A model generated the notes under the pieces. The model made no database searches and was not told the origin of the DNA. It was given only the letters and a program-made list of their open reading frames with translations. Of a DNA stretch of 64,000 nucleotides, positions 7,342 to 30,929 are shown piece by piece; within the stretch, counting starts at the first letter, position 1; each line of letters opens with the position of its first letter. The stretch spans positions 1-64,000 of the forward strand of contig SEFT01000007.1 in assembly GCA_004144175.1 (NCBI GenBank). Reading direction: 5' to 3'. The position numbers were made by a program, and so were the translations under genes. The stretch is from Sphingobacteriales bacterium. Lineage in GTDB: Bacteria > Bacteroidota > Bacteroidia > Chitinophagales > Chitinophagaceae.

Positions 7342-7905
7342 ATGCAAACAATTGTAGATAGCCGCTTCTGGATGGCCAGGAGCGCCTATGACGCCGAACG
7401 CCTGTTCGACGACCCGGTCTTGCTCTGGAAGGCCGCCTGCTCGTACTTCGACTGGTGCGACAAGAATCCCCTGATAGACCGCATAGCCGGTAAAGACGGT
7501 AAGGTGGTGGAGCGGGAACTGACACGCGTATTTACCAAAGAAGGTCTTTGCCAGCACCTGAATTGCTCCCGTAAAAAGTTTGACCAATACAAGACCGACG
7601 CCAAAGCGGCTTGCATTATCGAATGTGATAAACCTTGCGAAAGCGACTGTGAACAATGCGGTAAAACGCGGGCGGCAGAAGCGATACTCGAAGTAATGGA
7701 GCGCATGGACGATACCATTTACCGGCAAAAGTATGAAGGTGCGGCAGTGGGTATTTTTAGCGCTACCATCATAGCCAAAGACCTGGGCATTGCCGATAAA
7801 GAAAAAGAATTCGATAACCAAAGCCCTATACTTCTTGACTTCAGCGATAATACTACGGCCAACTCCGAAGCAGCGGGAGGCGATGGCGATAGCGGACAAG
7901 CATAG
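7342..7905 (+). CDS. phage terminase small subunit
   Basis: WKAACSYFDWCDKNPL...FTKEGLCQHLNCSRKKFDQYK...YEGAAVGIFSATIIAKDLGIADKKE-type motif. Confidence 0.85.
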   Translation: MQTIVDSRFWMARSAYDAERLFDDPVLLWKAACSYFDWCDKNPLIDRIAGKDGKVVERELTRVFTKEGLCQHLNCSRKKFDQYKTDAKAACIIECDKPCESDCEQCGKTRAAEAILEVMERMDDTIYRQKYEGAAVGIFSATIIAKDLGIADKEKEFDNQSPILLDFSDNTTANSEAAGGDGDSGQA

Positions 7906-9220
7906 GATAACCTTGTACGGCGGTGCCATAAGGGGTGGTAAGTCTTACTGGCTATGCCTGCTGCTGCTTGCTTATTGCTTTAAGTATCCCGGCAGCCGGT
8001 GGCTGATCGTCCGCGAGACGCAGCCTACTATGAGGCGCACCATATTGCAAACCTTCGACCAGCTGATGGACAAGGGCCTGCACCGCTACCTGAAAGGCTT
8101 CAACCAACAAACCATGACCGCAACCTTCAATAACAGCAGCCAGATCATCTTTATGTCTGAAAGCTATGATACCGATAAAGATCTGAACCGCTTCCGCGGG
8201 CTGGAGATCAATGGTGCGGGTATAGATGAGTTGAATGAAATGCAGGAAGCTACATTCAATAAGATCATCGAGCGCTCCGGTTCGTGGAATGGTGCTGAGG
8301 GCTGCCCCGTAAAGATACTGGCCACCTGCAACCCTACTGACGGCTGGGTAAGGGACAAGTTTTACAAACCGTGGAGTGCCGGCAGCCTGCCAAACGGCTT
8401 CGCTTACGTACCGGCCAAGATAACGGACAACCCTTACCTGTCGCCCGACTACCTGGAGTCACTGAAGTCGCTGCCGCGTTATGAATATGAAGTATTTGTA
8501 AATGGTAACTGGGACCTGCAGGTTAAGAAAGGCGGGGAGTTCTACAAATGCTTCCAGATGGACAAGCATATAGGTAAAGTGAATTATGACCCATCGCTGC
8601 CGCTGCATATAAGTTGGGATGAGAATGTGAATCCGTACCTGCCCTGTGGCATCTTCCAGATAGCTGGTAAGGCTTTATACATGATAGATGAAATAGCAGG
8701 CCGCAACCCGGGCAATTCTGTGCCTGACGTGTGCAGAGAAATCAAGAGAAAGTATCCGGGGCATACAGCAGGCTTGTTTGTATATGGCGATGCTACTTCG
8801 CAGAAGCGTGATGTAAAGCTGGAGAACGGCAGCAACTTTTACCGGTTGATACAAGACCACCTGGCCGAGTATAGACCATCCCTGCGTGTGCTGTCCTCCA
8901 ACCCATCGGTGACGACGCGCGGCAACTTTATAAACACAATACTCGAGACAGGCTTCGGAGGTATATCGCTACTGATAGATGAACACTGCCAGCTGACGAT
9001 AGCCGACTTTACGAACACCAAAGAAGCATCGGACGGGAGAAAGCACAAGGAAACAGCTCTGAACGAGCAGAAAGTACAATACCAGAAGGCAGGCCACTTT
9101 ACAGATCTTACCGACTATCTTATTTGCTATGCCTTCAGGGATGAATTTCAAACGTATCTGCATGGCAGTAAGAGCATGAACTGGTCAGCAGGAAGAGGGA
9201 CGAGCAAGAATACCTATTAA
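7790..9220 (+). CDS. phage terminase large subunit
   Basis: PTPKQREA...ITLYGGAIRGGKSYW Walker A; ATCNPTDGWV; overlaps small subunit. Confidence 0.93.
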   Translation: MPIKKKNSITKALYFLTSAIILRPTPKQREAMAIADKHRITLYGGAIRGGKSYWLCLLLLAYCFKYPGSRWLIVRETQPTMRRTILQTFDQLMDKGLHRYLKGFNQQTMTATFNNSSQIIFMSESYDTDKDLNRFRGLEINGAGIDELNEMQEATFNKIIERSGSWNGAEGCPVKILATCNPTDGWVRDKFYKPWSAGSLPNGFAYVPAKITDNPYLSPDYLESLKSLPRYEYEVFVNGNWDLQVKKGGEFYKCFQMDKHIGKVNYDPSLPLHISWDENVNPYLPCGIFQIAGKALYMIDEIAGRNPGNSVPDVCREIKRKYPGHTAGLFVYGDATSQKRDVKLENGSNFYRLIQDHLAEYRPSLRVLSSNPSVTTRGNFINTILETGFGGISLLIDEHCQLTIADFTNTKEASDGRKHKETALNEQKVQYQKAGHFTDLTDYLICYAFRDEFQTYLHGSKSMNWSAGRGTSKNTY

Positions 9221-9237
9221 ACCAAAAACCTATCAAT

Positions 9238-9435
9238 ATGATAACACTATGCACTTGGTATGCGCTGGGCATACCGGCTATGCTGTCGCTTACTGCGCTG
9301 ATAGCGCTCTACGAACGCGACTACCTGCATGCCGACACACTAAGGATCAAAGACTGTATGCGCCTGAGCCTCATCAGCTGGCTGCTGGTGCCTATGGCTA
9401 TTGTATGGTTATGTATCAGATGGAGGAAAATATAA
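9238..9435 (+). CDS. small membrane protein, phage context
   Basis: ORF 65 aa, two hydrophobic segments; aaaaacctatcaatATG start context. Confidence 0.5.
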   Translation: MITLCTWYALGIPAMLSLTALIALYERDYLHADTLRIKDCMRLSLISWLLVPMAIVWLCIRWRKI

Positions 9436-9441
9436 CAGGCC

Positions 9442-10190
9442 ATGGGATATATCATCAAAAGCGATTACCAAAAGCAGATACAGCCATCGCTGCTCAACCA
9501 GCTAACACAGGACGACGATGCCATACGCGCTGCCGCAGAACAAGCAGCAGAAGCCGAGGTGCGTAGCTACCTGGCGGGCCTATACGATATGGAGCGCGAA
9601 TGGACACCAGTTACGGAATGGTCGGATGCTGCACCGTATAAAGCAGGCAGCAGGGTTTACGATAGCGAACAGGTTTTATACCACGCAAAGTTTCCATTCC
9701 CGGTATTTGATGCACAGGCTATGTACAAGCGCGGTGATAAGGTGTGGTGGAAAGACAAGACTTACGAATGTCGTATAGCCACCACAGCCCTGGGCCACGA
9801 AACAGCCTTGCAGCAGCGGAACATTCAAAGCTTGCCCGCGGTAAACGTTTGCCCCGACAATGCACTGATAGGCGCACAGTACTGGGCCGACCTGGGTGCT
9901 TACCAAATAGCGGCAGGGGCAGCTTTAAGTAGTGATGCTTACTGGCGCTGGGCGATAGCCGCAATCACCAACTGCTGATCTATACGATCGATATAGCGCT
10001 GTACCACCTGCACAGCAGGCTATCGCCGGGTAACATTCCTAAGATACGGCTTGCACGCTACAGTCAGGCTATATCATGGCTGAAACAAGTAGCCGCAGGC
10101 GAATTGACAATAGACTTGCCAAGGCTACCTGCAACGGAAAAAGGGCGTATCCGGTTTGGCGGCAACATTAAACAGATCAACTCATACTAG
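9442..10190 (+). pseudogene. DUF1320/Mu gp36-like protein interrupted by an apparent 1-nt frameshift
   Basis: Frame 1 to ...SSDAYWRWAIAAITNC*; the shifted frame continues GDSRNHQLLIYTIDIALYHLHSRLSPGNIPKIRLARYSQAISWLKQVAAGEL...GRIRFGGNIKQINSY*; one extra G at 9950-9952 restores a 250-codon ORF. Confidence 0.8.
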
Positions 10191-11441
10191 ATGAAACTAT
10201 TCGGAATCAATATTACCAAAGCCCGACAGTCAGATATAAACTTGCCCAATCAGTCGAAGCCCGGACTCGCACAGCAAATAGCCCCGGTGCCGCTCGAGCG
10301 CATAAGGCAGGATGTATATACCTGGCGAGATAGCATACGCGAGGCAGAGCAGGCATGGTTTCCGCACCGCGTGAAGCAACAGCGACTATACCTGGATACT
10401 AACCTGAATGGGCATGTGCTCAGTGTAAAAGAACGCAGGAAGGATATAACTCTTTTGCGCGATTTTACTTTATGCGATGCGCAGGGAAATGAGAGCGCGG
10501 AGCTTAAAACCTTGTTTCAGCAGGAGTGGTTTTACGATGCAGTTTCTTACGCGCTGGACGCTATCTGGTACGGCTATTCTCTGATATCACTTGGCGATAT
10601 TAAAGACGGAATATTTGCCGACAGCACTGTAATAAAACGCTGGCATGTAAGCCCTGAGCGCGAAGAGGTGACTAATTATATATACCATCCCACAGGCACA
10701 AGCTTTACGCAGGATGATATAGCCAACTGGCATCTATGGGTGAAGGCACCGGCTGATAGTGGCATCAGCAATTGCGGCTATGGCTTATTCAACAGCATTG
10801 CACTTTATGAGATCATCCTGCGGAACACGCTCGGCTACAATGCAGACTTTGTTGAGCTTTTTGCACAGCCCTACCGTATAGGCAGAACGACCAAGACCAA
10901 CGAAGCGGAACGCGCCGAGCTGGAACTGGCCCTTCAGGCAATGGGTAGCAGCTCATACGCTATCATCGACCCGACAGACGATATACAATTTATCGAATCA
11001 AAGCTTTCCGGCACTGGTTGGCAATCTTACGACAACCTGGATAAGCGCTGCATGAAGATGATATCGAAGATTGGCTTGGGCCATGCCGATGCGCTGGATA
11101 GTGTGCCCGGTGAACTGGGCGCGGGTAAAGGAGCCGATAACCCCGTATATGCAGCGCTGAAAGACAAGCAGACCAAAGACGGGCGATTCATCGAAGGCAT
11201 TGTGAATAACCAACTAATACCTAAGATGCGGGCGCTGGGCTTCAATATTCCGTCGGGCTATCGCTTTGGCTATACCAATGATGAGGAACAGGAAACCTTC
11301 CGCAGGCGTCAAGATGAGAGCAATAAAGCAACCGCCGATATAGCGCTGAGTATGAAACAAGCCGGGCTGCAAATGACCGCCAGGTATTTCGAAGAACGCA
11401 CAGGTATCCCGACAGAAATGTCAACCAGCAATAACCAATAA
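10191..11441 (+). CDS. phage portal protein, DUF935 (Mu gp29-like)
   Basis: Mu-type portal pattern; starts at the DUF1320 stop. Confidence 0.85.
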   Translation: MKLFGINITKARQSDINLPNQSKPGLAQQIAPVPLERIRQDVYTWRDSIREAEQAWFPHRVKQQRLYLDTNLNGHVLSVKERRKDITLLRDFTLCDAQGNESAELKTLFQQEWFYDAVSYALDAIWYGYSLISLGDIKDGIFADSTVIKRWHVSPEREEVTNYIYHPTGTSFTQDDIANWHLWVKAPADSGISNCGYGLFNSIALYEIILRNTLGYNADFVELFAQPYRIGRTTKTNEAERAELELALQAMGSSSYAIIDPTDDIQFIESKLSGTGWQSYDNLDKRCMKMISKIGLGHADALDSVPGELGAGKGADNPVYAALKDKQTKDGRFIEGIVNNQLIPKMRALGFNIPSGYRFGYTNDEEQETFRRRQDESNKATADIALSMKQAGLQMTARYFEERTGIPTEMSTSNNQ

Positions 11442-11473
11442 AAACCAATACTCACCATGAAAAACACAACCAT

Positions 11474-11989
11474 ATGACCAGCCCACTGATAAACGCGTGT
11501 AAAAGCATTACCGACCGGGCAGAAATGATAAACGGCATAGATCATGTTGCCATTTGGAACAACCAGATACAAGGTGTTATAGATGGCACAGGAGATCCAT
11601 TTCACCTTCCTGCACTGTTTGTCGAACTGCTTTTTGGCACACAGCATAACCTTGGTGTTAAGGTGACGCAAGCCGACTTGACATGGCGGCTGCATATAGC
11701 CCATGAACAGCTAATCAGCACCCCTGATCAGAGCTTTGTGGTGATGGAGCTACGCGACCAGGTAAAGAAGGCCTTCCTTGGCTACAAGCCAACTAACTGC
11801 GGAAGGCTGCAGTATGTGACTGAAGTGCCCGACACCAATCATGGCAATCTGTACCACTATACCATCGACTTTACCTGCAGCTTTATCGATACAAAAGGAA
11901 GTCCACTGGATCCCGATTCGGATGACTGGCTTATAAAAGAACCACCAACCTGCATAGAAATAAACATAGACAAAGAAAACCAACTATAA
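11474..11989 (+). CDS. phage hypothetical protein (neck/tail completion context)
   Basis: ORF 171 aa between portal and baseplate J. Confidence 0.6.
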   Translation: MTSPLINACKSITDRAEMINGIDHVAIWNNQIQGVIDGTGDPFHLPALFVELLFGTQHNLGVKVTQADLTWRLHIAHEQLISTPDQSFVVMELRDQVKKAFLGYKPTNCGRLQYVTEVPDTNHGNLYHYTIDFTCSFIDTKGSPLDPDSDDWLIKEPPTCIEINIDKENQL

Positions 11990-11992
11990 ACC

Positions 11993-12835
11993 ATGGCAAG
12001 AACAATTGCAGAAATTCAAGACCAGATGATAGCAGCCGTACAGGCCGATGCTGATCTGGCGGGCATTAACAGCCCATCAAAACGCGCGCTTTGGCGACTG
12101 TGGACCTATGTAGTAGCCGTTGCCATATCGGTATTTGAGCAAATGCTGGATATAGCCAGGGCTGATTTTGAAACCATCGTGAGTGAAGCACCTCCGGCTA
12201 CATCAGCCTGGATAAGCAATAAGATGATGGAGTTCCAGTATGACGCTGTCAGTCCGCAAAATATCCAGTTGATCAATCTGGTGCCGAAGTATCCGGTAGT
12301 AGACGAAAGCCTGCGCATCATTACCCGTTGTGGTGTTAATCTGAGCGCGTATAACACAGTGCTGGTAAAAGTGGCTAAAGGCGCGCCGCTGGAAGCGCTC
12401 AGCGAAACAGAGCGCCTCGCGGCACAAGGCTACATTCGCAGCATAGGTATTGCAGGGATCGATTATGTAGTAATGTCGCTACCGCCGGATCGCTTGCTGA
12501 TACAGGCCGATATATACATCAGTGGTGCTGTGCTGGGATATGTAGTAGGAGATATGCAGGTAGCTATAGCCAATTATCTGTCCGGTATCCCCTTCGATGG
12601 TGTTATGAAGATCGTGGACCTTATCGATACAATGAAAAGCTTGCCGGGCATCACAGACGTAGTATTAAAAAACGTTACCGCGCGCAGAGCTGCTGATGAT
12701 ATCGCCGTGAGTACATATATCGTCAAAGATAAAAGGCTGCTCGAATCTAAATGGCAGACACACGCAGGCTATATGATACCTGAAGACACTCCCGGACAAA
12801 CGCTATCTGAAACATTAACCTATACGATACAGTAA
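11993..12835 (+). CDS. baseplate J-like protein
   Basis: Late LQADIYISGAVLGYVVGDMQVAIANYLSGIPFDGVMKIVDLIDTMKSLPGITDVVL pattern. Confidence 0.8.
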   Translation: MARTIAEIQDQMIAAVQADADLAGINSPSKRALWRLWTYVVAVAISVFEQMLDIARADFETIVSEAPPATSAWISNKMMEFQYDAVSPQNIQLINLVPKYPVVDESLRIITRCGVNLSAYNTVLVKVAKGAPLEALSETERLAAQGYIRSIGIAGIDYVVMSLPPDRLLIQADIYISGAVLGYVVGDMQVAIANYLSGIPFDGVMKIVDLIDTMKSLPGITDVVLKNVTARRAADDIAVSTYIVKDKRLLESKWQTHAGYMIPEDTPGQTLSETLTYTIQ

Positions 12836-13500
12836 TGCCATACAATATCAACTATACGAGCCTTGTACATGATACTCTTCCGCCAGATAAGCGTACCACG
12901 CGGCATTCACGATGGCTGGTAGCATTGTTGTCGCCAATAGTATGGCTTAAAGAAGAGTTCTTCGGCTTATACATGCAGGGGGCAACATATGCTGCATTCG
13001 TTCCGCTGACCGTCTATAATAAGGGTACGCGCGTAATTTTCAACCGCGTGATATGGGAAAGCTTGATGGATAATAATAATAGATTGATCCCCTTTCCGGG
13101 ATACTGGAAGCGGCTGTCAATACCCGTTATCGGCGCCGAGGAACGGGTCTGGTATAGTGGCCACACGATCGTTCTCGAGTGGGCGCTCAATAAGATGTTC
13201 AAAAGAACATTTCGCCAGCCACCAGCACAGTCAGATATCTATATTGTCACTAATCGTGTTGTGAACCTTCCTTTTTTTGTCAGCGATGGAGATGTACATA
13301 ACAGCAGCTCCGTAGGGCTCGACGATTCAGTAGGATATGTGAAGGCGGAACAGATGGTGTATCCGGGCGAGGTATCACCGGCGGGCAATTTCACCATTCA
13401 TGCACCGCAGGCGATGACCGGCACCGGAGATGCGCTAATACGATTTGCGAAACAGTACACACCGCAGGGGATATTTATTGAAGTAAAATTTGACAACTAA
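12835..13500 (+). CDS. phage tail/baseplate protein (gpI position)
   Basis: ORF 221 aa overlapping the baseplate J stop by one base. Confidence 0.6.
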   Translation: MPYNINYTSLVHDTLPPDKRTTRHSRWLVALLSPIVWLKEEFFGLYMQGATYAAFVPLTVYNKGTRVIFNRVIWESLMDNNNRLIPFPGYWKRLSIPVIGAEERVWYSGHTIVLEWALNKMFKRTFRQPPAQSDIYIVTNRVVNLPFFVSDGDVHNSSSVGLDDSVGYVKAEQMVYPGEVSPAGNFTIHAPQAMTGTGDALIRFAKQYTPQGIFIEVKFDN

Positions 13501-13505
13501 CAACT

Positions 13506-14321
13506 ATGAAAAGAATAGATACGAGTAACATAACCAATGAAATAAGAATGCCGGTAACAAAGGCGGTGTTTGACCATTTGCAGGGCGCTTCTGCCGAAGC
13601 AGCGAGTTTCCTAGCGTACTTTTTATTCGATACCCTACCTGTAGCGAACACGTTGTATATTTTACATGGTGGCATTGTAGACCGTACATATGCTAACCAG
13701 GGTGGCGGTATTTCTACCGTATCACAAGGTTTGGCCTATTGGAATGGCGAATTGTATGAAATTCCCAGCGGAGGATTCATAGATGCAGGCGCTTCAAACC
13801 ATGACGTTCTCGTGTATCTTGATAACGCTCTTGCATACGGTGCTAATACTGTAAAATTTAGTGATAACGTGGACAGACCCGTTTTACAGCGCATGGTGAT
13901 GAAATTTAGAGCAGCTATACCCGGCAGTATCAGCAGTGGCGATTACATATGTGAATACGATAATGTCGTACGGATGCATTCTCCCAGGCCTGTAGTAGAA
14001 AACTCGGCAAACTGGACCAATACCTATTATGTCAAATTTGATCGTAATTACAATACTTTTTTTTCTACAGTAGGCGGTTCTTTAAAAATGGCGTTTGATC
14101 TTGACCCTACCAAACTTTCAATAGGTGCAACAACACGGTTACATCTGACTTTTCCTGCAAGCGTTACTTCTGTTAGCTATATAACATCGGGTAATACCCA
14201 TGTTCAGGAGGAAAATGGTACCCTCGCTTCTGTAACGCCAGGCGTTGCTACGACGATATACGTGACGTACCATGGCTTTGGTAATGGATGGCATCGCATC
14301 AGCGTAAATGTAGTACACTAA
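13506..14321 (+). CDS. putative phage tail fibre protein
   Basis: ORF 271 aa, Gly/Ser/Thr-rich beta pattern. Confidence 0.6.
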   Translation: MKRIDTSNITNEIRMPVTKAVFDHLQGASAEAASFLAYFLFDTLPVANTLYILHGGIVDRTYANQGGGISTVSQGLAYWNGELYEIPSGGFIDAGASNHDVLVYLDNALAYGANTVKFSDNVDRPVLQRMVMKFRAAIPGSISSGDYICEYDNVVRMHSPRPVVENSANWTNTYYVKFDRNYNTFFSTVGGSLKMAFDLDPTKLSIGATTRLHLTFPASVTSVSYITSGNTHVQEENGTLASVTPGVATTIYVTYHGFGNGWHRISVNVVH

Positions 14322-14343
14322 TCACCATAGAACCTATACCACC

Positions 14344-14541: not shown

Positions 14542-14570
14542 TATTCTTAAGGTGCAGATTCTAATAACGG

Positions 14571-15445: not shown

Positions 15446-16519
15446 ATGCGATTCCAATATACTATAGACCAAACAGCAGATGAGCCGGTGATGCTCATCA
15501 ACAAACACATCGGGCACGACGATGCCGATGGCGAAGGCATCATGGGCGCACAGTTCCAGGCCGAATTGCTAACGCTCGATACCATGGGCAAAAAACGCAT
15601 ACAGTTATGGATCAACAGTCCCGGCGGATCGGTAATGGATGGTATGAACATCCGTAGCGCCATCCTCCGCAGCAAGACGCCTGTGGATACATATTGCGTA
15701 GGTGTTGCTGCCAGCGAGGCTGCCAACATCTTCCAGGCGGGCCGCAAGCGTACCATGGCCGACTATGCCTTCATGATGATCCACAATCCCTTTCAGTCCG
15801 GGGCAGCCGAAGCAGATGCCGAAGCATTTCGATCGTTTCGCGATAGCATAGTAATAACGCTCAGCGCACGAAGCGGTAAAAGCAAAGAGGAAGTAATAAG
15901 CATGATGGAACAACAAGCATGGCTCAGCGCCAGCGAGTGCTTTCTACAAGGCTTTTGCGATGAGATAGAGGTGAGCCATGAGCAGGAACAGCCAACCGTG
16001 TTTCCGCAAACAAATATTAAAAGCGCCTGGTGTGCATACAACAATGCGCTCAACCAGGTATTAAATAAAGCAAAACCCTATAACATGCTAAGAATAGCAA
16101 ATAAACTAATGCTGCCCAAAGATGCAAATGAGGACAGTATAATACGCGCCATAACGGCCATGGAAAACAGGGCGCAGGCCGCCGAAGCCCTGTTGGCCAA
16201 TACAAAGACACAACTCTGCAAAGCGCAGGAAGAATTAGATGCAGCACAGCAAAATGTAAATGAGCTAAAGGAGCAACAAGCGATAACCGAAGTGTCCGGG
16301 TTCGCAAATAGTGGCCGTATCAAGAATGATGCATCAGTCATCAAACAATGGGCTGCAAAGTGGCTGACAGACCCTGAGGGTGTAAAGGCAATGCTGGAAG
16401 CACTGCCCCTTAATAAAACAGCCATCCGTATAAATGACGAAACGGAAATGCCTGCCAGTGTATACGGTGCTGCAGGTGTAATGATAAATATTGCTAATAA
16501 AAACAACCAATTGAAATAA
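15446..16519 (+). CDS. ClpP-like prohead protease with C-terminal scaffold-like region
   Basis: INSPGGSVMDGMNI, VGVAASEAANIFQAG, FMMIHNPF; C-terminal coiled-coil-like segment. Confidence 0.88.
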   Translation: MRFQYTIDQTADEPVMLINKHIGHDDADGEGIMGAQFQAELLTLDTMGKKRIQLWINSPGGSVMDGMNIRSAILRSKTPVDTYCVGVAASEAANIFQAGRKRTMADYAFMMIHNPFQSGAAEADAEAFRSFRDSIVITLSARSGKSKEEVISMMEQQAWLSASECFLQGFCDEIEVSHEQEQPTVFPQTNIKSAWCAYNNALNQVLNKAKPYNMLRIANKLMLPKDANEDSIIRAITAMENRAQAAEALLANTKTQLCKAQEELDAAQQNVNELKEQQAITEVSGFANSGRIKNDASVIKQWAAKWLTDPEGVKAMLEALPLNKTAIRINDETEMPASVYGAAGVMINIANKNNQLK

Positions 16520-16522
16520 CAA

Positions 16523-20234: not shown

Positions 20235-20398
20235 AAGGCTATAGAATAACAGAAAGTACCGGGGAGGAGCGTAAAGTAAGCGCAATGCTCCGGTACTTTT
20301 TCCATATAGACCCCGACGCACTTTCAGAAGAAGACTTCTGGAAGCGATGGTTTGAGCTGGAATATGTACTAAGACTAACAGGTCAAATAAAAGAATAA
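19887..20398 (+). CDS. tail assembly chaperone, -1 frameshift long form (gpGT-like)
   Basis: A9 run 20223-20231; the -1 frame gives IEGYRITESTGEERKVSAMLRYFFHIDPDALSEEDFWKRWFELEYVLRLTGQIKE*, stop overlapping the tape-measure ATG. Confidence 0.78.
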
Positions 20399-22224
20399 TG
20401 ACATTAGATCAATTTAATAGCGAAGAGCGCAAATTGGAGTACGAGATCACGCTGAATGGTCTTGAATTCCAGGATGGCATTCTGAAGATCGCCAGTTTGA
20501 CACAAAAGTTTTCAGCAGAGATGAGCGCCGCCAGCCACACGGCAATACAAGTGGCAGATGCAGTAAATACAACAGGTGTTGCCGCCGAAAAAGCCGGCGA
20601 TGCCATGGAGGAATCGAAAGATAAGATAGATGAGGCTGAGGAGGCGATGCACAAATTCATAAAAAGTGCGGCAACCGTCAGTTTTAAATTCTTGAAAAGC
20701 TCATTGGCTGTCTTCGACGAGTCACAACAGGCAATGGGAAAGCTGGAATTGTCACTGCGCAGTACCGGCTATGCAGCAGGTTTTTCGGCCAAAGAGCTGG
20801 AGGCACAGGCAAATTACCTGCAACAAAATACACTGTATACAGATGAAGCTGCAATGGGTGTACAGACGCTACTGGCAGGGTTCAAAGATATCAGCGGCGA
20901 CAATTTCTCCGATGCGGTACCGGCCGTGCTGGATCTTGCAACTGCTATAGGTGGCGATCTCGAAGATACAGCTAGCGGTTTGGGTGGCGTTTTGGCAGAT
21001 CCGGTACACAAACTCGGAGAACTCGAAAAGGCAGGCGTACGGTTCAGTGATTCGCAGAAGGATATGATAGCCTCGATGGTTAAGAATAATGACCTGGCAA
21101 GTGCGCAGCAAATAGTCCTTGGCCAGCTACGGGATACTTACGGTGGCGCTGCAGAAGCAGCGGCTAGTGCAGGTGCAGGCCCCTTCACAATGCTGCAAAA
21201 TCAGGCGCGCGAGCTGAAGGAGGGAATAGGCGGCCTGGTAGAGTTCGGGTTGTCCCGGCTGGCTCCCGTGATTGAATTAGCAATGGAGCCACTGAAGTTT
21301 TTTTCCGGCGCTTTATATGAAGCCAACGAATGGGTGCGTGAAAATGAAACTGCTGCTACCTTTCTTGTAGCTGCCGTTGGTGCGCTTGCCCTGGCTATAG
21401 GTGGCGGCACGCTTGTAATGGAAGGCGCCACCATCGCAGCCAATGTACTTGCAGCAGCAGAGGCCGGGCTCAATGCTGTGATGAATGCAAATCCCATTGG
21501 CCTCATCGTTACAGGCCTCCTTGCTTTTGGTGCAGTGGTAGCCTACGCCTGGGAAAATGTAGGCTGGTTTCGCGGCGGTATACTGGGTGTGTTCTATGCG
21601 TTCGAAGCGCTAAGCGATTTCGTGTCTACGGTAGTCGTCGGCACATTGCAGGGGTTAGGCGATATGGTGAAAGGCATTTTTACCTTCGACACTGACCTTA
21701 TCTCGTCCGGCTTCGATAAAGCTACCGATTCGTTTAAAGAAGGGGCACGTAAGATCGGTTCAGCATTCAAGCGTGGTATGGATGAAGGACAGTCAGAGGT
21801 AGATGCAAGGGCGAAAGAAAAGAAGGAGCAGCCAGCCGCGGCATTAGCTTTTCAACAGCAAACACGAAAACCCGGAGTAGAGGCGCCGATAACTAACATT
21901 GGCGGTATGGGTAATAGTGCGCAGGCTCCGGGCACATCTGCGGCAAACGCACCTGCAACCGGTAGTGCCGGAGCCAATCCGGCTGGAGGATGGCAGGGTA
22001 AGCCCCCCGCGGCTAACAGTGCATTTACGCCGGTGAGCGGAGTAGGGGTAGATAAAGTAGGAGGCAACACATCTTCGAGCATCAACATAACCATAAACGA
22101 CGGCCTGGTAAAGGTGCTCAACTTTACTACCAACAACTACCAGGAAGGCATGACATCTTTAAGAGAACAAGTGGCGGAAGCGCTTACAGGCGCTATTCGC
22201 GACAGCCAAATAGTAGCAGTATGA
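20398..22224 (+). CDS. tail tape measure protein
   Basis: 608 aa, alpha-helical with central hydrophobic region. Confidence 0.85.
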   Translation: MTLDQFNSEERKLEYEITLNGLEFQDGILKIASLTQKFSAEMSAASHTAIQVADAVNTTGVAAEKAGDAMEESKDKIDEAEEAMHKFIKSAATVSFKFLKSSLAVFDESQQAMGKLELSLRSTGYAAGFSAKELEAQANYLQQNTLYTDEAAMGVQTLLAGFKDISGDNFSDAVPAVLDLATAIGGDLEDTASGLGGVLADPVHKLGELEKAGVRFSDSQKDMIASMVKNNDLASAQQIVLGQLRDTYGGAAEAAASAGAGPFTMLQNQARELKEGIGGLVEFGLSRLAPVIELAMEPLKFFSGALYEANEWVRENETAATFLVAAVGALALAIGGGTLVMEGATIAANVLAAAEAGLNAVMNANPIGLIVTGLLAFGAVVAYAWENVGWFRGGILGVFYAFEALSDFVSTVVVGTLQGLGDMVKGIFTFDTDLISSGFDKATDSFKEGARKIGSAFKRGMDEGQSEVDARAKEKKEQPAAALAFQQQTRKPGVEAPITNIGGMGNSAQAPGTSAANAPATGSAGANPAGGWQGKPPAANSAFTPVSGVGVDKVGGNTSSSINITINDGLVKVLNFTTNNYQEGMTSLREQVAEALTGAIRDSQIVAV

Positions 22225-22793
22225 TGAAGCGATCAGATTATAAGATTGGCGAATCGGAGCCGGTCATTATTACCAATACCGATAATCCTTACAAGCAGGT
22301 AGATGCAGGTAATAAAGCCCCTTATTTTAATCCTGTGGGCAATCCCGATGATGTAGACCTTGAGATACAGGCCGGCTCCTATACGGGAGATGATAAAAAA
22401 ACCTACAACTGGCCCGAGCTAAAGCTGACGGGGGCTTTGATAAACATCACACAGACTAAAAACATTGTAACTACATCGGTGGCAGGGCGCAGCGGCACGG
22501 TCAAGGAGTACATAGCCATGGGCGACTATGCCGTGGATATTGTAGCTACGGTGACCGCTCCTAACGGCGATTCAGCGCTTGATGAGATGGCAGCCCTGAT
22601 AGCGATAAAAACGGCGCCCGTTTCATTGAAGGTCAACAGTGCATTCCTGCTGAAGTATGATATCTACAACCTGGTGATAAAAGACTTTAAAGTAGAGCAA
22701 CAGGCAGGCAGGTATTCTACGCAGGTAGTAAAGATCAGCGCTATTAGTGATACACCCTATATCATAGAGCAAAATGTTAAGAGTAATAGTTAA
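22221..22793 (+). CDS. phage tail/baseplate protein, DUF6046-like
   Basis: ATGA overlap with tape measure; 190 aa. Confidence 0.7.
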   Translation: MMKRSDYKIGESEPVIITNTDNPYKQVDAGNKAPYFNPVGNPDDVDLEIQAGSYTGDDKKTYNWPELKLTGALINITQTKNIVTTSVAGRSGTVKEYIAMGDYAVDIVATVTAPNGDSALDEMAALIAIKTAPVSLKVNSAFLLKYDIYNLVIKDFKVEQQAGRYSTQVVKISAISDTPYIIEQNVKSNS

Positions 22794-24024
22794 GATACAG
22801 ATAGAACAGCAAACTCCTAAAGGGTATGCCACGAAGCGCGATAAAAAGTTCGTCATCGACTTTGCACAAAACTACGAGGTAGTTAGCTCGTGGAAGAATA
22901 TGACAGATACCGCCAAGATAAAGCTACCTAAAAACATGGTGATAAGGGATGTGAGCAAGCGTACGTTCAACCTGCGGGACTCTAATAAGCCGATAGGTGC
23001 ATCGCTGGAAGATATACCGGCGGTATTTATGCGGGGCGACAAGATCACCATCGACCATGGGTACTGGGGGCTCAATGCCGACGGCGCTGAAAAACGATAC
23101 ATGACCGGCGAGGATGGTATTCCGAATTTATTTGAGGGGTATATCACGGGTATTAAGACCGCCGACCTCTTTGAAATGACCTGCGAGGACGGCATGTGGA
23201 AACTGAAACAAACAGGGGTGGCCAATAAGGTGTGGAAAGGCATAACAGCTAAGAAGATGCTGGAAGAAATGCTGGCCGGTACAGATTATAAGCTGCCCGC
23301 CGAAAAGGCTAACCGGAAGACGGTGCTGGAAGCTGCCAAATCGCTGAAGGGCGATATGGGTACGTACATCACACAAAATCACAACCTTGGTAAGGTACTG
23401 GAAGAACTGCGCTCGCGCGAGCACATCGAGGCATACCTGCGCGGCAACGAGCTGAGGGTTGGCATGCCTGTGTACTACGAAGAAGAAGCCCGCATGCACC
23501 AGTTCATATTCAGCGGGAAGCATGGCAATATAATCAGCCACAACCTGGAGTATAAGAATGAAGAAGACAAAGTATTCAGCGCAGTTGCGACCACTGTAAA
23601 GGAAATGGATGGCTCTGCGAACCACCGCGGCAAAACAAAGAAAAAAACGCAGAAGGCAGAATGTCTGGTAACACTACAGAACAGGCAGTTTACAGTAAAA
23701 ACAATAAGCCCCGGCGAGGTGGTGCCAAAGGCCGATGGAGAGGTGAGGGTAAGCCTGCCCTATACGTCCGGGACGTCGGAAGAGCAAATGATCGCTTCGG
23801 CTAAGGAACTGCTGCGGCAGCAATGCTACACTGGCTTCGAGGGGCACTTCACTACATTCGGGATGCCCTTTGTGCGGCATGGCGACAATGTACAGCTAAT
23901 AGACCCTTCGATGCCTGAGCGAAACGGCTCTTATAAAGTAAAAGCCGTCACTTACAAAGGTGGTACCTCGGGCCTGCGGCAAGAGATACACCTTGATAAA
24001 AAACTACCCGAAAAAACTAAATAA
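22774..24024 (+). CDS. baseplate hub / late control gpD-like protein
   Basis: Position after the tape measure and gpD-like C-terminal VRHGDNVQLIDPSMPERNGSYKVKAVTYKGGTSGLRQEIHLDKK. Confidence 0.75.
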   Translation: MLRVIVKIQIEQQTPKGYATKRDKKFVIDFAQNYEVVSSWKNMTDTAKIKLPKNMVIRDVSKRTFNLRDSNKPIGASLEDIPAVFMRGDKITIDHGYWGLNADGAEKRYMTGEDGIPNLFEGYITGIKTADLFEMTCEDGMWKLKQTGVANKVWKGITAKKMLEEMLAGTDYKLPAEKANRKTVLEAAKSLKGDMGTYITQNHNLGKVLEELRSREHIEAYLRGNELRVGMPVYYEEEARMHQFIFSGKHGNIISHNLEYKNEEDKVFSAVATTVKEMDGSANHRGKTKKKTQKAECLVTLQNRQFTVKTISPGEVVPKADGEVRVSLPYTSGTSEEQMIASAKELLRQQCYTGFEGHFTTFGMPFVRHGDNVQLIDPSMPERNGSYKVKAVTYKGGTSGLRQEIHLDKKLPEKTK

Positions 24025-24026
24025 TA

Positions 24027-24647
24027 ATGAGCAACAGAGCAATAATAGATGCAGTAAAGGCTATGTCGGGTGCGAATAACCCGGCAGCCAGCCTGCATAT
24101 TGGCACCGTAACTGCCGTAGATGAAGAGACATATACCTGCGCCTGCCGCCTGGAAACAGGCGGCGGTGTAGCTATGCCCGGCATAAAGCTAATGCCCAAT
24201 CCCGATGATGGCGTCGTAGGCTTCCCCGCCATCGACAGCCAGGTACTCATCATCATGCAGTCGCCCGGCGACCCCTACGTGATCATGACCACAGAGCCGG
24301 ACAAGCTGGACGGCATAGCCAACAAAGAGATATACCTGCACGTAGACAAGAGCACCGTGCAGTTGACACCGGACAAGATCGTATTGAACGATGGAAGTTA
24401 CGGTGGGTTGGTGAAAGTGGAAGCGCTGGTGGAGAGGTTGAATAAGATTGAAGAAGATATTAATAAATTGAAGAAGGCATTTAAAGATTGGACTGTCAAA
24501 CCGCAAGACGGTGGGGCAGCACTTCGCGAAAAAGTTGCTGGTATTGCAGCGGGTGCAGCAATACCAGGGTCATGGGCGGCTGATACACTAGTTACAACAA
24601 CAGTAGGCCAAGTAGAGAATCTAAATGTATTGCATGGTAAAGATTAG
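24027..24647 (+). CDS. baseplate spike protein (gpV-like)
   Basis: OB-fold-like VTAVDEETYTCACRLETGGG, C-terminal helix. Confidence 0.7.
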   Translation: MSNRAIIDAVKAMSGANNPAASLHIGTVTAVDEETYTCACRLETGGGVAMPGIKLMPNPDDGVVGFPAIDSQVLIIMQSPGDPYVIMTTEPDKLDGIANKEIYLHVDKSTVQLTPDKIVLNDGSYGGLVKVEALVERLNKIEEDINKLKKAFKDWTVKPQDGGAALREKVAGIAAGAAIPGSWAADTLVTTTVGQVENLNVLHGKD

Positions 24648-24664
24648 ATGTGCAAGACGCATAT

Positions 24665-25399
24665 TTACTTAATCATGAACTGCTTTTTTAATTGGCCAAT
24701 TTCATATGTATAGCTTCCACTCGGTAAATCCCCGCGATGAATTATTATTTTATCAGATTGATTGGTAACTGTCATTTGCTTAACAATAGTACCGGTAATA
24801 TTGTATATGTTTAATACGGCGCTGGTTGTATTTTCTGGTAATGTATAATAGATAAATGCAGCTGTTTCAAATGGATTAGGAATTATGTTGGATTCTCCAT
24901 CACTTCTTTGATCTGGCTTAAACCCCGATGGGCTTGAATATGTACCTGGCAAGCTGTAAACTTCTGTGGGCTGATAAGAGGGTATGCTTTTATGTATGAG
25001 CAGTTTCCACTTGTTATCAACAATCTTTACATCATACCATGCAACTTTATCAAAACTCTTAAGTAACAAACCATCTTCATTATAAATATGTACATCACTC
25101 CCAAACATGATTATGAATTCAATTTTGGAATCGATGTTAAATAAACCTTTAGATGCATATGTTGGTAGGAGGTATAACGACGTATTGATTTGGGTGGGTA
25201 TCGTTTTGTACACACTATGGTCAGCATTGTAGATTATTACATTTTTAGTTGCATCCTCCACACCTAGATATTTTTGACCTTCACCTTCTATCGTTACAAC
25301 TTGTGTTCTCCAATTATCAGTATATGTATGCTCCAAATTGATCTGCCCCCAACCCACATTAGCAATCAATATTGCGGCAATAGTCAGTAGTTTTTTCAT
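24665..25399 (-). CDS. T9SS type A sorting domain-containing protein inside the phage cluster
   Basis: MKKLLTIAAILIANVGWGQ signal; IIPNPFETAAFIYYTLPENTTSAVLNIYNITGTIVKQMTV...LPSGSYTYEI...QFMIK. Confidence 0.8.
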   Translation of the reverse strand: MKKLLTIAAILIANVGWGQINLEHTYTDNWRTQVVTIEGEGQKYLGVEDATKNVIIYNADHSVYKTIPTQINTSLYLLPTYASKGLFNIDSKIEFIIMFGSDVHIYNEDGLLLKSFDKVAWYDVKIVDNKWKLLIHKSIPSYQPTEVYSLPGTYSSPSGFKPDQRSDGESNIIPNPFETAAFIYYTLPENTTSAVLNIYNITGTIVKQMTVTNQSDKIIIHRGDLPSGSYTYEIGQLKKQFMIK

Positions 25400-25457
25400 A
25401 TAGTGGTGGTTTATGCTAGTAAATGTAAGAAATATCTCAAGACGGGTTACAGGTAAC

Positions 25458-25484
25458 AAAAAGCTCCGCAAATGCGGAGCTTTT
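25458..25484. terminator. intrinsic terminator
   Basis: AAAAAGCTCCGCAAATGCGGAGCTTTT. Confidence 0.85.
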
Positions 25485-25509
25485 CTCGCATTGTTATGGC
25501 CTGGTGCCT

Positions 25510-26415
25510 TTAAGGGCGGCCAAAGCCTTTCAGTATTTTTTTAGCGCCGTCTTTGGCTGTGTTCTTTGCGTCTTTTGCTGCATCTTTTTGCGCCGCATCC
25601 TGCTTCTTGCTTTCTTCCTGTTTACTTGCGGTGTTTTCTGGTGTTTGCCGGCTATCGTTCGTGGCACCTGTAGTATTGTTTGTTGCCGGTCCCTTTATGT
25701 GCAGCGTTGTTTCGTAATACTGGCCCGTGCTATTGCCACTTTTATCTTTGGCCGGTACAAACCTGGAGTCGTTCATGGCAAGCTTTATCCTGTCTAAAAA
25801 CCCTTGGTTCTTGGGTGCGCATTCGCCTTGCAGCGTAGATGTCGGCCAGTCAATCGTGCCGTCGCCCTCAATAAACAGTTTTACCGCGACCCTGCAATCG
25901 ACCGAACTCCTTTCGTTATCGCGCCAGCTAAATCTGGCATTTACAAATGAATCGAGGCTATAATTGACATATGCATTTGCCGATTGGTCTATCCGCTCTT
26001 TAACGTCGTAGTTTGGTATTTCGTACTGCACAAAATATTTATTCTTCGTTTGCACGATATATGTTTTACTGCCGTCGCTGATGTTGAACTCTTTTACCGG
26101 GCCATGCGTTATTTCTACTTTATACCGGTCCTTATCATAGCGGCTGTCCTTTGCGTTCCACATGTATTCCCACTTATATCCCATAGGGTTTATGTCGCTA
26201 TGCACATTGTAAACGCTGAATACAACAGACCCCATTGTTTTAGATACGATACTGATGGCGTCCCCATTATAACAAAGGATCACCGTCTCGTTTTTGGTCT
26301 TTCTTACACCGTCGGTTTCTACTATTAGTTTTTGTTCAGTTATACAGTCCCGGTGTTGCGCATTGGCGGCTACGCTGCTCAGCAGCAACATAGTGGCGAT
26401 AAAGAGTTTTTTCAT
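25510..26415 (-). CDS. secreted protein with TonB-C-terminal-like segment and charged Ala/Lys-rich tail
   Basis: Signal peptide; VDCRVAVKLFIEGDGTIDWPTST...RFVPAKDKSGNSTGQYYETTLHIKG. Confidence 0.6.
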   Translation of the reverse strand: MKKLFIATMLLLSSVAANAQHRDCITEQKLIVETDGVRKTKNETVILCYNGDAISIVSKTMGSVVFSVYNVHSDINPMGYKWEYMWNAKDSRYDKDRYKVEITHGPVKEFNISDGSKTYIVQTKNKYFVQYEIPNYDVKERIDQSANAYVNYSLDSFVNARFSWRDNERSSVDCRVAVKLFIEGDGTIDWPTSTLQGECAPKNQGFLDRIKLAMNDSRFVPAKDKSGNSTGQYYETTLHIKGPATNNTTGATNDSRQTPENTASKQEESKKQDAAQKDAAKDAKNTAKDGAKKILKGFGRP

Positions 26416-26477
26416 ATAGCGCTAATGTATAGAAAACATTGATGAACGTCAAGCCCTGTATTCGCATGCACCTCAAA

Positions 26478-26494
26478 AAAGGGGGTGTGCAAAA
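26478..26494 (+). promoter_or_regulatory. repeated phage motif copy 2 (putative late promoter/activator site)
   Basis: AAAGGGGGTGTGCAAAA, 52 nt before ATG 26530. Confidence 0.55.
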
Positions 26495-26529
26495 GGGCCG
26501 TTGCGCATAACATGTAGGAACTTGCACCT

Positions 26530-26835
26530 ATGGTTACAGATTATTTACTAGACGACATGGGCGACCTGCTTTTCTCCAATGGCGACCTGGCCTCTGGCGA
26601 CAGTGACGCCCGGCACATACGAGACACGATTTACGCATACCCCGGCTGGTGGAAAGAATTTCCCGCCGACGGCGTAGGCATACAGGGCTACCTCAACTCG
26701 GGCGGGCGCCAGCAGCAGCTGGTACGCGAAATAAAGATACAACTGCAAAGCGATGGCTACCAGGTGAGCCCCAGCCCGGTAATAGATACCAGTACAGGAA
26801 AAATGATAATCAACCCTAATGCAACAAGAATATAA
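26530..26835 (+). CDS. baseplate wedge gpW/gp25-like protein
   Basis: SGDSDARHIRDTIYAYPGWWKEFPADGVGIQGYLNS...EIKIQLQSDGYQV. Confidence 0.7.
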   Translation: MVTDYLLDDMGDLLFSNGDLASGDSDARHIRDTIYAYPGWWKEFPADGVGIQGYLNSGGRQQQLVREIKIQLQSDGYQVSPSPVIDTSTGKMIINPNATRI

Positions 26836-27838
26836 GATATACAGAACGCTGTCGGAGCAGAGCGTATATGACATATGCCTCAACACATATGGCACCCTTG
26901 ACCTGCTGAGCAAACTGATGACCGATAACGGCATATCGTCGGTATCTCGCAAGTTGCCCCAGGGTAGCAGCATCCGCTACGATGAGCGGTATGTGAATGA
27001 TCAGAAGTTTGCAGCACAGGGCTATGTATTTGCAACAAGGGCTAGCCTGCCGGGCACATTCTTACTCGATCTTTACCCCTTAGCTACGGCAGCATACTCC
27101 ACACGCCGCCTCAATAGCGATTACCCCGGCACTGCTTTTTGCCTGCGCCGGTCGCTCGATAATAGGGAGCAGGATATCGGCTTTGATGAAGATGGGCATC
27201 TAGATATAAAGTGTATGCAGCAGTTTCTGGCAGGTAGTGCAGGCTACATTACTACATGGTACGATCAAACGGGGAAAGGACAGCATTTTGCGCAGTCCGA
27301 TAAAGACAAGCAGCCAATGCTGGTAGAGATAAGCCCTGGAAGGTATGCGCTGAAAAGCGACGGGTTGAATGACAGCATGCGCGCTACTATAGCTGCGGCT
27401 ATTCAGCAAAACTTTACCTATGCGCTTATCGCAAATTTTATTGGCGGAACGGGCGAGCGTTGTCTGCTGCATGGCCGCGCTACCGATACCAACAGTATGC
27501 TCATCATGAGGATAGGCGGATCGGCCAGGCTTATTACCCAGGGCTATTTATATACGCATACCTGGGCCTTGAATAAGTATGAAGTGATAATAGCCATACG
27601 TACACCAACAGATGGCCTGCTGCGCCGGAATATGGTAAGCACTACAGCCACCACGAAGCTGGCAAATGCGTACGATATGAAACACCTGCGCATTTTTGGC
27701 GAGATGAGCCTTGACTTTGCTACCGCCCTAAATAACTGTGAAAGCATTGTGCCGGAGTTTATCATATGGAACCAGGACCATTCCATCAACGCACAGGGCA
27801 TAAATGACAATATGAATAAATACTTCAAAATATACTAA
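26819..27838 (+). CDS. tail protein with arabinofuranosidase-B-like (PF09206-type) domain
   Basis: AAYSTRRLNSDYPGTAFCLRRSLDNREQDIGFDEDGHLD...WYDQTGKGQHFAQSD. Confidence 0.65.
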   Translation: MQQEYKIYRTLSEQSVYDICLNTYGTLDLLSKLMTDNGISSVSRKLPQGSSIRYDERYVNDQKFAAQGYVFATRASLPGTFLLDLYPLATAAYSTRRLNSDYPGTAFCLRRSLDNREQDIGFDEDGHLDIKCMQQFLAGSAGYITTWYDQTGKGQHFAQSDKDKQPMLVEISPGRYALKSDGLNDSMRATIAAAIQQNFTYALIANFIGGTGERCLLHGRATDTNSMLIMRIGGSARLITQGYLYTHTWALNKYEVIIAIRTPTDGLLRRNMVSTTATTKLANAYDMKHLRIFGEMSLDFATALNNCESIVPEFIIWNQDHSINAQGINDNMNKYFKIY

Positions 27839-27839
27839 A

Positions 27840-28205
27840 ATGGGATACTCAATAACGACCGACGGGCTTAGCCCCTATAGACTTATATCTGCAGCCAACG
27901 ACAATGCCTCTGTTATAAAACAGGGCACGGGCCAGTTGCACATGCTCACCGTAATAAACACGAGCGCAACGCTCTACTACCTGAAACTGTACGATAAGGC
28001 AGGCACACCCACAGCAAGCGATGTGCCCGTGCATACGTACCCGATACCTGCCGGCACCAGTGGCAATGGGTTTATTCTTTCTTCGGGCTCGTTTGGCGAG
28101 CAATACAATACTGGCATTGCTTTCAGAATAACATCGGGAGGCAGCGACGCCGACACCGGCGCATGTGCTGCAGGCGCTGTTTACCTCAACGCAAGATATA
28201 AATAG
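27840..28205 (+). CDS. phage structural hypothetical protein
   Basis: ORF 121 aa in tail operon. Confidence 0.6.
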   Translation: MGYSITTDGLSPYRLISAANDNASVIKQGTGQLHMLTVINTSATLYYLKLYDKAGTPTASDVPVHTYPIPAGTSGNGFILSSGSFGEQYNTGIAFRITSGGSDADTGACAAGAVYLNARYK

Positions 28206-28208
28206 ACC

Positions 28209-29168
28209 ATGCTGCTAAAAGGAATCACAACAATCGGCGACACTACGCCGCTGCCACCACCACTACCAGTCTTTACGCCCATGCTGGATGCATACACTGG
28301 TAGTGTAAAGGCGGCATATAGCTTACGTAAGGTAAGTAGTGCTGCCAGCTATGCGATACGTGTACGTCGCTCAACAGACAATGCAGAGCAGGATATAGGT
28401 TTTGTTAACGAGCATCTGGATACGGCAAGCTTGCTGAGCTTTGCAGGTAGCGGCGATGCATATGTATCAGTGCTGTACGACCAGAGCGGAAATGGCATAC
28501 ACATGCTGCAAACCGCCAGCGCCAGCTGGCAGAAGAAGATCGTAAATGCGGGTGCATTGATAATGGCTAATAGCAGGCCGATGGGATTGTTTGATGGAGT
28601 GAATGACTACTATGCTTGTGCTGCGGGCAACGAAGCTTACTTCACCTTCATGCACGACGGCACGCTTTACAGCATCTATGCGATTACGCAATTCGGCTTC
28701 ACCGCGGAAGCCGAAATGGCTTGTACCGTTATAGCTAATACAGCCGCAGCTTCATCTGGCAGGGGTATCTCTATTCGGTATGATGACCGTACCGTGCAAA
28801 CGCGCAACCAGGCATTGCAGTTAACATTGGGTAACGGATCGTCATCTGTAGCAGCCTATTTGGCGCAAAACAATACAGGTATTGCTGGCGCCATTGCACA
28901 GATAACGTTCCATTTTGATCCATCAAATACCACGACTGCAAACAGGGCTGGGTACAGGGTAAATAGTAATACAATTAACACCGGCACAACAGGTGGCGCT
29001 GTGCTCAGCACTGCTGCACAAGTAGCTGCGACCCGCATCGGCACTATTACCACAGGCTCTAATGCTATGAATGGATACCTGCCCGAACTGATCATACTGG
29101 CAGGCGACCAGTCGGCCAACCGCACTGCAATTGAAAGCAATCAAAAAACATACTTCAATATTTCTTAA
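28209..29168 (+). CDS. tail protein, paralogous arabinofuranosidase-B-like domain
   Basis: AAYSLRKVSSAASYAIRVRRSTDNAEQDIGFVNEHLDTASLLSFAGSGDAYVSVLYDQSGNGIHMLQTAS. Confidence 0.65.
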   Translation: MLLKGITTIGDTTPLPPPLPVFTPMLDAYTGSVKAAYSLRKVSSAASYAIRVRRSTDNAEQDIGFVNEHLDTASLLSFAGSGDAYVSVLYDQSGNGIHMLQTASASWQKKIVNAGALIMANSRPMGLFDGVNDYYACAAGNEAYFTFMHDGTLYSIYAITQFGFTAEAEMACTVIANTAAASSGRGISIRYDDRTVQTRNQALQLTLGNGSSSVAAYLAQNNTGIAGAIAQITFHFDPSNTTTANRAGYRVNSNTINTGTTGGAVLSTAAQVAATRIGTITTGSNAMNGYLPELIILAGDQSANRTAIESNQKTYFNIS

Positions 29169-29207
29169 ACACACATACTCATTCACCCACCGATAAACAC
29201 CTATCAC

Positions 29208-29489
29208 ATGAACATCAAAGTATTTGAATTTGCTACCGAGGCCGCCGCCTTGCAGGCACAGACCATCGTCGACGCACTGATGGGATTCCCTGCCGCATCT
29301 ACACCGCACGCAGTAGTGCCTTATAGCTGGGACTACTGGAAACCCGCACGCACCGGCCGCTGGTACATCGATATAGACAGCCGCCAGGTAGAGAACTGCG
29401 CATACAGCCTCGAAGCCATCACCGGCATCACCACCCAGGGCGGGTCGGTAGTGCTATCACTTAACAAACAAGACCCACCCGAAGAATAA
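29208..29489 (+). CDS. phage hypothetical protein
   Basis: ORF 93 aa preceded by gataaacacctatcacATG. Confidence 0.55.
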   Translation: MNIKVFEFATEAAALQAQTIVDALMGFPAASTPHAVVPYSWDYWKPARTGRWYIDIDSRQVENCAYSLEAITGITTQGGSVVLSLNKQDPPEE

Positions 29490-29490
29490 T

Positions 29491-29685
29491 ATGGAACAGA
29501 ACCCACACACAAACCCGCTGATGGGTACACTGTACCTGGCCGGGTCATGGATGCTCACCTTTTTCTCTTTTCTGTCGACCATAGATGTATCGACCGTAGC
29601 CGGTATGATGAGCTGCGCGGTATCGATGCTGGCTATATGGTACTATATACTGCAAATAAGAAAGCTGAAACGAGATGCTGAATAA
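29491..29685 (+). CDS. small membrane protein, holin candidate
   Basis: Two TM segments, adjacent to endolysin region. Confidence 0.55.
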   Translation: MEQNPHTNPLMGTLYLAGSWMLTFFSFLSTIDVSTVAGMMSCAVSMLAIWYYILQIRKLKRDAE

Positions 29686-29896
29686 CTACTATAAACGCAC
29701 GCCCAAAAAGCTGCTGAAACTGATGCTGGCCATCAAAGGCATATTGCTGGCCGCATCAGGTTCGGCCTACATGACCAATCATCCCGGCCTTGCCTTCTGG
29801 ATGCTGGTAGGCGGCGCTGCGCTGGATGAGCTTACAAAACTTTTTACCGATGAAAACAATAATAGCAGCGGCACTGCTGCTGGCAACGTTCAGTAG
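29675..29896 (+). CDS. small membrane protein, holin candidate
   Basis: Hydrophobic segments, overlaps neighbours. Confidence 0.55.
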   Translation: MLNNYYKRTPKKLLKLMLAIKGILLAASGSAYMTNHPGLAFWMLVGGAALDELTKLFTDENNNSSGTAAGNVQ

Positions 29897-30332
29897 CTGC
29901 TATACCGCGCAAAAAGCGGGCAGGCAGGTGCTGCGTGCGCAAACCACCTATCCGCTAACGCTCGCATCGCTTTGCGGGCAGTTGTACCCGCCCAAAGACT
30001 CAGTGCATACCGAACTACTGTATCTGCAAGGCGAGACACAATACATGCCCGGCGAGGTAAGATATGTGAACTGCGATAGTGGTAGCAACAAAGGCAATAA
30101 CAAAGTGCACGTACCCTGCCCGCCAGCAAGACTTAGGGTAGATACAGTAAGAAACACAAGAATAAGTTACCTGGTGAACCGGGCGAGAGAAACTGAGCTG
30201 GCAGTAAGACTGACAACTGCGCAGGCTGACAATAAAAGGATGCATGCGCAAAAGAAAAGACTGATGTACTGGGCGTTTATAGCTACTGCAGCATCGCTCC
30301 TATTACTTACCCTATCGCTAAAACTAAGATAA
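29850..30332 (+). CDS. putative unimolecular spanin (N-terminal lipobox, C-terminal TM)
   Basis: MKTIIAAALLLATFSSC... and C-terminal RLMYWAFIATAASLLLLTLSLKLR; lies in lysis cassette. Confidence 0.55.
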   Translation: MKTIIAAALLLATFSSCYTAQKAGRQVLRAQTTYPLTLASLCGQLYPPKDSVHTELLYLQGETQYMPGEVRYVNCDSGSNKGNNKVHVPCPPARLRVDTVRNTRISYLVNRARETELAVRLTTAQADNKRMHAQKKRLMYWAFIATAASLLLLTLSLKLR

Positions 30333-30929
30333 ATGAACATCACGTCGATACTATTAAAAGCAGTGGCCCCCGTTTCTACCAAAGCTGCTGACAGATTTGT
30401 GCCGTATATCAACAAATATGCAGCGCCCTATGGTGTGACAACGCCACTGCGTATGGCTATGTTTCTGGCACAGATACTGCACGAGAGCGGATGCCTGAAA
30501 TATACCCGAGAGATATGGGGGCCTACAGATGCGCAAAAGCGCTACGAGCGCGATATGAACGAACGCTGGGCACGCGACCTGAAGCCTGCAGAGCGCAACT
30601 ATAAAGCATTTCAGCTAGGTAATGAGCTTGCCGGTGATGGAAAAGCTTTTGCCGGACATGGTCTGATACAGGTAACGGGCAGGGCAAACCACGCCCGCTG
30701 CTCCTATGACTTGTTCGGTGACGACCGACTGACACGCACGCCTGATCTGCTCACAACTCCCGAAAATGCGGTGCTATCGGCCTATTGGTTTTGGAGCAGG
30801 AATAATCTGAGCATACTGGCAGATAGGGGCGATGTGCTGGCCTGTACCAAACGCATAAACGGCGGTACAAATGGGTTGATAGAACGACAACGATACTATG
30901 ATAAGGCGATAATGTTTTTTAAGGGTTGA
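30333..30929 (+). CDS. GH19-like endolysin
   Basis: MAMFLAQILHESGCLKYTREIW...FAGHGLIQVTGRANH...AVLSAYWFWSRNNLS. Confidence 0.88.
   Translation: MNITSILLKAVAPVSTKAADRFVPYINKYAAPYGVTTPLRMAMFLAQILHESGCLKYTREIWGPTDAQKRYERDMNERWARDLKPAERNYKAFQLGNELAGDGKAFAGHGLIQVTGRANHARCSYDLFGDDRLTRTPDLLTTPENAVLSAYWFWSRNNLSILADRGDVLACTKRINGGTNGLIERQRYYDKAIMFFKG

Follow-up and report, generated by a model that had tools for sequence, protein, structure and literature searches.

A contractile-phage late gene cluster in a Bacteroidota genome is very probably a cryptic prophage that has lost its early half

How does a block of contractile-phage structural and lysis genes come to stand in a bacterial chromosome with no integrase, MuA, repressor or replication gene alongside, and could it still make a particle? 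The window analyzed here, the first 64 kb (64,000 nucleotides) of a 229,613-bp contig (C77), raises this question at positions 7342-30929, where a virion and lysis cluster adjoins host-type genes at both ends. The host genome is a draft of 93 contigs that total 4.34 Mb, with a completeness of 97.6%. The initial annotation had named a decayed Mu-like prophage, a satellite-dependent element and a domesticated gene transfer agent as alternatives. Very probably the locus is a cryptic prophage: a temperate Bacteroidota phage of which the late half survives, its early half lost and two of its virion genes broken. We called its genes from family and profile matches (Pfam and PHROG) together with comparison with a second, collinear cluster in the same genome (G000:C88:18051-44127, in a prophage at about 1-44400 of contig C88).

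7342-7905, forward: terminase small subunit, gp3 type (GP3_package; PF16677, E 6e-19; phrog_606)
7790-9220, forward: terminase large subunit (Terminase_3/6N; PF04466, phrog_979), 69-70% identical to the C88 copy; true start probably further inside than 7790
9442-10190, forward: head-tail adaptor gene (phrog_195), frameshifted near 9945-9951
10191-11441, forward: Mu-type (DUF935) portal, Portal_Mu (PF06074, E 7e-51), 73% identical to C88
11442-11473, forward: slot of the Mu gpF-like minor head gene, empty in the window, occupied in most relatives
11474-11989, forward: Gp37-like protein (PF09646)
11993-12835, forward: baseplate J-like protein, a weak assignment (phrog_38413; relatives match phrog_219, baseplate wedge; PDB 9g8s, baseplate J, E 0.008)
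12835-14321, forward: pair of conserved genes without a functional label, possibly baseplate or fibre (47% and 30% identity in C88; order shared by most relatives)
15446-16519, forward: ClpP-type head maturation protease (CLP_protease; PF00574, phrog_94)
16523-17458, forward: major capsid protein (phrog_11320 and phrog_1623), 75% identical to C88
17891-19438, forward: tail sheath (DUF2586; PF10758, E 2e-46; phrog_907)
19447-19865, forward: tail tube gene, frameshifted near 19584-19587; a single ORF in relatives
19887-20234, forward: putative tail assembly chaperone (50% identity in C88, place conserved; no match in family searches)
20398-22224, forward: tape measure protein (TMP_2; PF06791, phrog_27166)
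22221-24647, forward: baseplate genes for a DUF6046 protein, hub and spike (PF19512, phrog_5233, phrog_4930, phrog_6142)
24665-26415, reverse: pair of divergent cargo genes; the first encodes a protein with a type IX secretion sorting domain (PF18962, E 1e-6)
26530-26835, forward: small conserved baseplate-region gene (74% identity in C88; place conserved among compared relatives)
26819-29489, forward: tail-fibre-like genes, named from their place (38-48% identity to C88 for the main genes, order conserved)
29491-30929, forward: lysis module of small membrane-like proteins, a spanin-like protein (by eye) and a GH19-type endolysin (phrog_181, E 2e-56; 69% identical to the C88 copy)

Family matches bear out the cluster and the coordinates given to it initially, as well as the terminases, DUF935 portal, ClpP protease, capsid, sheath, tape measure, hub and spike, and endolysin. 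Two labels fall away: DUF1320 was undetected by Pfam (the adaptor matches phrog_195 instead), and gp25 at 26530 drew no support from PDB or Pfam searches. A PDB profile search with the sheath matched nothing. The description of the cluster as near-complete also has to be given up, with adaptor and tube in fragments and the gpF-like gene missing. A tailocin, against which the initial annotation had already cited the terminases and capsid, is not supported: terminases, capsid, portal and protease are all present.

The empty gpF slot tells less than it might seem to. A PF04233 (gpF-like) gene lies between portal and Gp37 in C88 and in most of the relatives that cover this interval, but we dropped its absence as proof of decay because two relatives, G014:C73 and L114, are also without it. 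In L114, an IMG/VR relative, the portal and Gp37 genes are separated by a ferritin-like ORF (by eye; 2453-2944), in the slot that the gpF-like gene takes in others. Genome G014 has a large terminase (G014:C71:17161-18534, 51% identical to that of the window) apart from its structural cluster on C73, and its contig C71 also carries an integrase at 42672.

What the window lacks can be read from the C88 cluster, which has the same gene order from large terminase to GH19 endolysin, proteins mostly 30-81% identical to those of the window (24% for one short gene), a type IX-sorted cargo gene in the same slot and host genes within about 500 bp past the endolysin. It differs in that some 18 kb of early genes precede its late genes, where the window has none, and further in carrying a gpF-like gene, a portal followed by a DNA methylase, another small terminase and no frame breaks. 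The methylase gene (G000:C88:21995-23113) is placed between the portal and the gpF-like gene. The early genes include an ERF recombinase, HTH and ParB/GmrSD-like genes and, by eye, an HNH gene. Because the late genes of C88 sit behind early phage genes, the half missing from the window is what relatives normally carry; and because host genes follow the endolysin within about 500 bp in both clusters, the right end of the window cluster looks native and its left half looks lost. C88 starts at a contig end, so any integrase of that prophage would be out of view. The first 500 bp (G000:C88:1-500) read unlike the prophage genes after them, possibly a contig-end artefact.

Searches for the missing functions agree with the initial statement that no integration, repressor or replication genes are visible. 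Phage_integrase had no match on C77 or C88, and its eight matches on other contigs are linked to neither element. In related phage records, the integrase family search put only G316 above the cut-off, with weak matches in G312 and G315; most of these records thus show no integrase, although they may be fragments. The late clusters of the IMG/VR records G309-G314, G320 and G321 are collinear with the window (sheaths 42-53% identical), but have an unbroken adaptor and tube, a gpF-like gene and, in several, long early regions. The longer of them, G309-G313, extend 8-26 kb upstream of the large terminase, and in that part of G309 we recognized repressor-like and helicase-like (replicative) genes by eye; G321, G314 and G320 have a shorter upstream side, which may be cut.

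The junctions with host DNA involve four further features, listed with strand where one was assigned.

336-608, forward: isolated early-gene homologue at the contig start, beyond the host genes, a possible stray remnant
4985-6711: diacylglycerol-kinase-like gene (DAGK_cat match) and surE, host genes of the left flank
6819-7118, forward: GNAT gene, final host gene of the left flank (homologues in 14/14 congeners, elsewhere in those genomes)
30944-30962: terminator-like hairpin 3' of the endolysin, presumed native right end

The GNAT gene ends at 7118 and a flavin oxidoreductase gene starts at 31090 on the right, the direct flanking that had first been described. Adjacency of the dagk-surE pair in four congeners (G096, G306, G308 and G226) identifies the left flank as chromosome. 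An 11-bp inverted repeat (7170-7180/7190-7200) can be read downstream of the GNAT gene. The longest word common to both cluster edges is 10 bp, and neither an attachment repeat nor a terminal duplication was found. When we compared the homologues of GNAT, surE and flavin oxidoreductase in 14 congeners, the comparison of flanks that had been suggested, no empty site was recovered; only the dagk-surE adjacency is kept among them, with no synteny beyond it, so none is readable. A promoter-like motif of the Bacteroidota type at 7293-7323, ahead of the small terminase, occurs in the window at the frequency expected by chance, and an Rfam search matched only a tRNA-Lys.

Marks of decay are seen in the reading frames. 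We aligned the proteins of relatives to each of eleven clusters (the window, C88 and nine others), and just two frame breaks have the support of more than one relative; the window cluster has both of them. The head-tail adaptor changes frame at about 9945-9951 on the evidence of proteins from 7-8 relatives, and the tail tube does so at about 19584-19587 on that of proteins from ten; each gene lies in two frames in the window assembly, though a sequencing error could have produced either change. C88, G309 and G312 encode the adaptor as a single ORF of 246-290 aa and the tube as one of about 139 aa, and the window ORFs 9442-9978 and 19593-19865 are pieces of the frameshifted adaptor and tube genes, respectively. 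The scan found no break in C88 or in 8/9 of the other clusters, and a single call from a single query in G313. A tailed particle would be expected to require both proteins, and the locus most likely makes no infectious or DNA-transferring one. About 20 genes of the cluster are still open, and a relative-rate test of intact genes, window versus C88, gave 120:97 amino-acid changes (chi2 2.4, not significant); the lack of a significant rate excess over C88 fits a recent inactivation.

Could the locus instead be an intact prophage or late region, with both frameshifts and the left junction being assembly errors and the early half on another contig? A draft of 93 contigs, a window that begins at a contig start, mostly open genes and the ORF at 336-608, which is 59% identical over 64 aa to 3382-3573 of C88 (in the early gene 3313-3615), all speak for it. 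Yet the genus-conserved dagk-surE pair runs straight into the cluster on one contig, and C88, from the same assembly, is free of frame breaks, which makes this explanation improbable, although an assembly error at either break or at the left junction is conceivable.

Gene transfer agents of the RcGTA type are structural clusters without replication genes, and the known ones are conserved within host clades. A domesticated agent of this kind, a structural cluster that the host keeps and that packages and moves host DNA, would account for a locus where about 20 virion and lysis genes are open and genes for replication or integration cannot be seen. The window shares the gene content of these agents, but it is broken and sporadic. 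Relatives of the large terminase occur in 27/299 genomes of the family and those of the sheath in 39/299, mostly distant in both cases; no close copy of the cluster was found in the family sample, and the sheath is absent from 14/14 other genomes of the genus, which argues against the vertical conservation that a gene transfer agent would show. Such a sporadic spread is prophage-like, not that of a long-kept agent. With the tail tube and head-tail adaptor frameshifted and an early region on the sister cluster in the same genome, we give this proposal of the initial annotation almost no weight, and the cluster is no longer a candidate Bacteroidota gene transfer agent.

Its kinship bears on the Mu-like ancestry that had been proposed. 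By sheath, the closest isolates belong to the Winoviridae: Flavobacterium phage lotta8-1 (NC_048829; 48%) and Winogradskyella phage Peternella_1 (NC_062754; 25%). The two share with the window Mu-type portal or gp7-family head genes, a ClpP protease, a DUF2586 sheath and late genes in a broadly comparable order, the lotta8-1 portal being 23% identical to that of the window; unlike the window, both are complete phages, and Peternella carries MuA and MuB. The window shows the Winoviridae trait of Mu-like structural proteins with a DUF2586 sheath and Mu-type portal, and the remnant is related to this family, although identities of 23-48% are compatible with family rank either way. In the paper describing the family, Mu-like structural proteins are reported for every one of its phages, while MuA and integrases are each reported for a part of them (PMC8776804). 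DUF935 is therefore a sign of Mu-like particles rather than of Mu-like replication.

For a Mu-type transposable prophage that has lost its transposition genes, one could thus cite the Mu-type portal, Gp37 and kinship to a family whose member Peternella has MuA (PMC8776804). A protein search with Peternella MuA, which detected itself as positive control, found no relative in the genome, linked or unlinked to the cluster, or in ten related phage records; a Mu-transpos_C family search of the genome had no match, but its controls likewise had none. The relative on C88 has an ERF-type early region, with HNH and HTH genes, and no terminal duplication was found at the window cluster. We regard a Mu-type ancestor as very unlikely, and of the original proposal, Mu-like ancestry stands for several virion genes and not for replication. 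Among these phages, a portal of the Mu type need not go with replication of the Mu type.

The presence of two related clusters in one genome also invites the idea that the virion module works in trans, with the C88 prophage complementing or activating it and mixed particles or a virion-only partner element as the outcome. No evidence of regulation or co-mobilization accompanies it; identities are just 30-81% for most of the proteins, and the window cluster has two broken genes. Phage satellites typically keep their own integration or replication genes and lose most or all virion genes, the opposite of the content seen here. We consider use in trans extremely unlikely, and find no support for a phage satellite or, with it, for the satellite-dependent element of the initial annotation: this cluster kept its virion genes and has no integration or replication genes. 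Equally hard to credit as the Mu-type ancestor is a more adventurous scheme in which the frame breaks are sequencing errors and an early-less contractile module, recently captured, is used by the host or by C88 in trans for DNA-carrying particles, making it a young gene-transfer-agent-like element in Bacteroidota.

On the cryptic-prophage explanation, a temperate phage with Mu-like virion genes and non-Mu-type replication, related to the Winoviridae, would have integrated at this locus. Loss of the early half by deletion would then have removed the integrase, repressor and replication genes and joined host DNA directly to the small terminase, and single-base indels would later have disrupted both the head-tail adaptor and the tail tube; the order of these steps is conjectural. 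A remnant of this sort is an already known kind of element. With one cluster preceded by an early region and its relative in the same genome decaying, the pair is a tidy example of prophage erosion, and no more.

Two smaller observations concern cargo and decay in the wider group. The type IX-sorted proteins at 24665-25396 (reverse strand) and G000:C88:37676-38407 (reverse strand) are 40% identical, and their genes lie antisense in the late operon between the spike and the gp25-like gene; lysogenic-conversion cargo is a possible role for such a gene. Padloc, run on nine proteins, called no defence genes. In two other genomes of the family, related sheath genes contain in-frame stops (G071:C12:424055-425026 and G035:C35:14056-15024), possibly further cases of prophage decay within the group.
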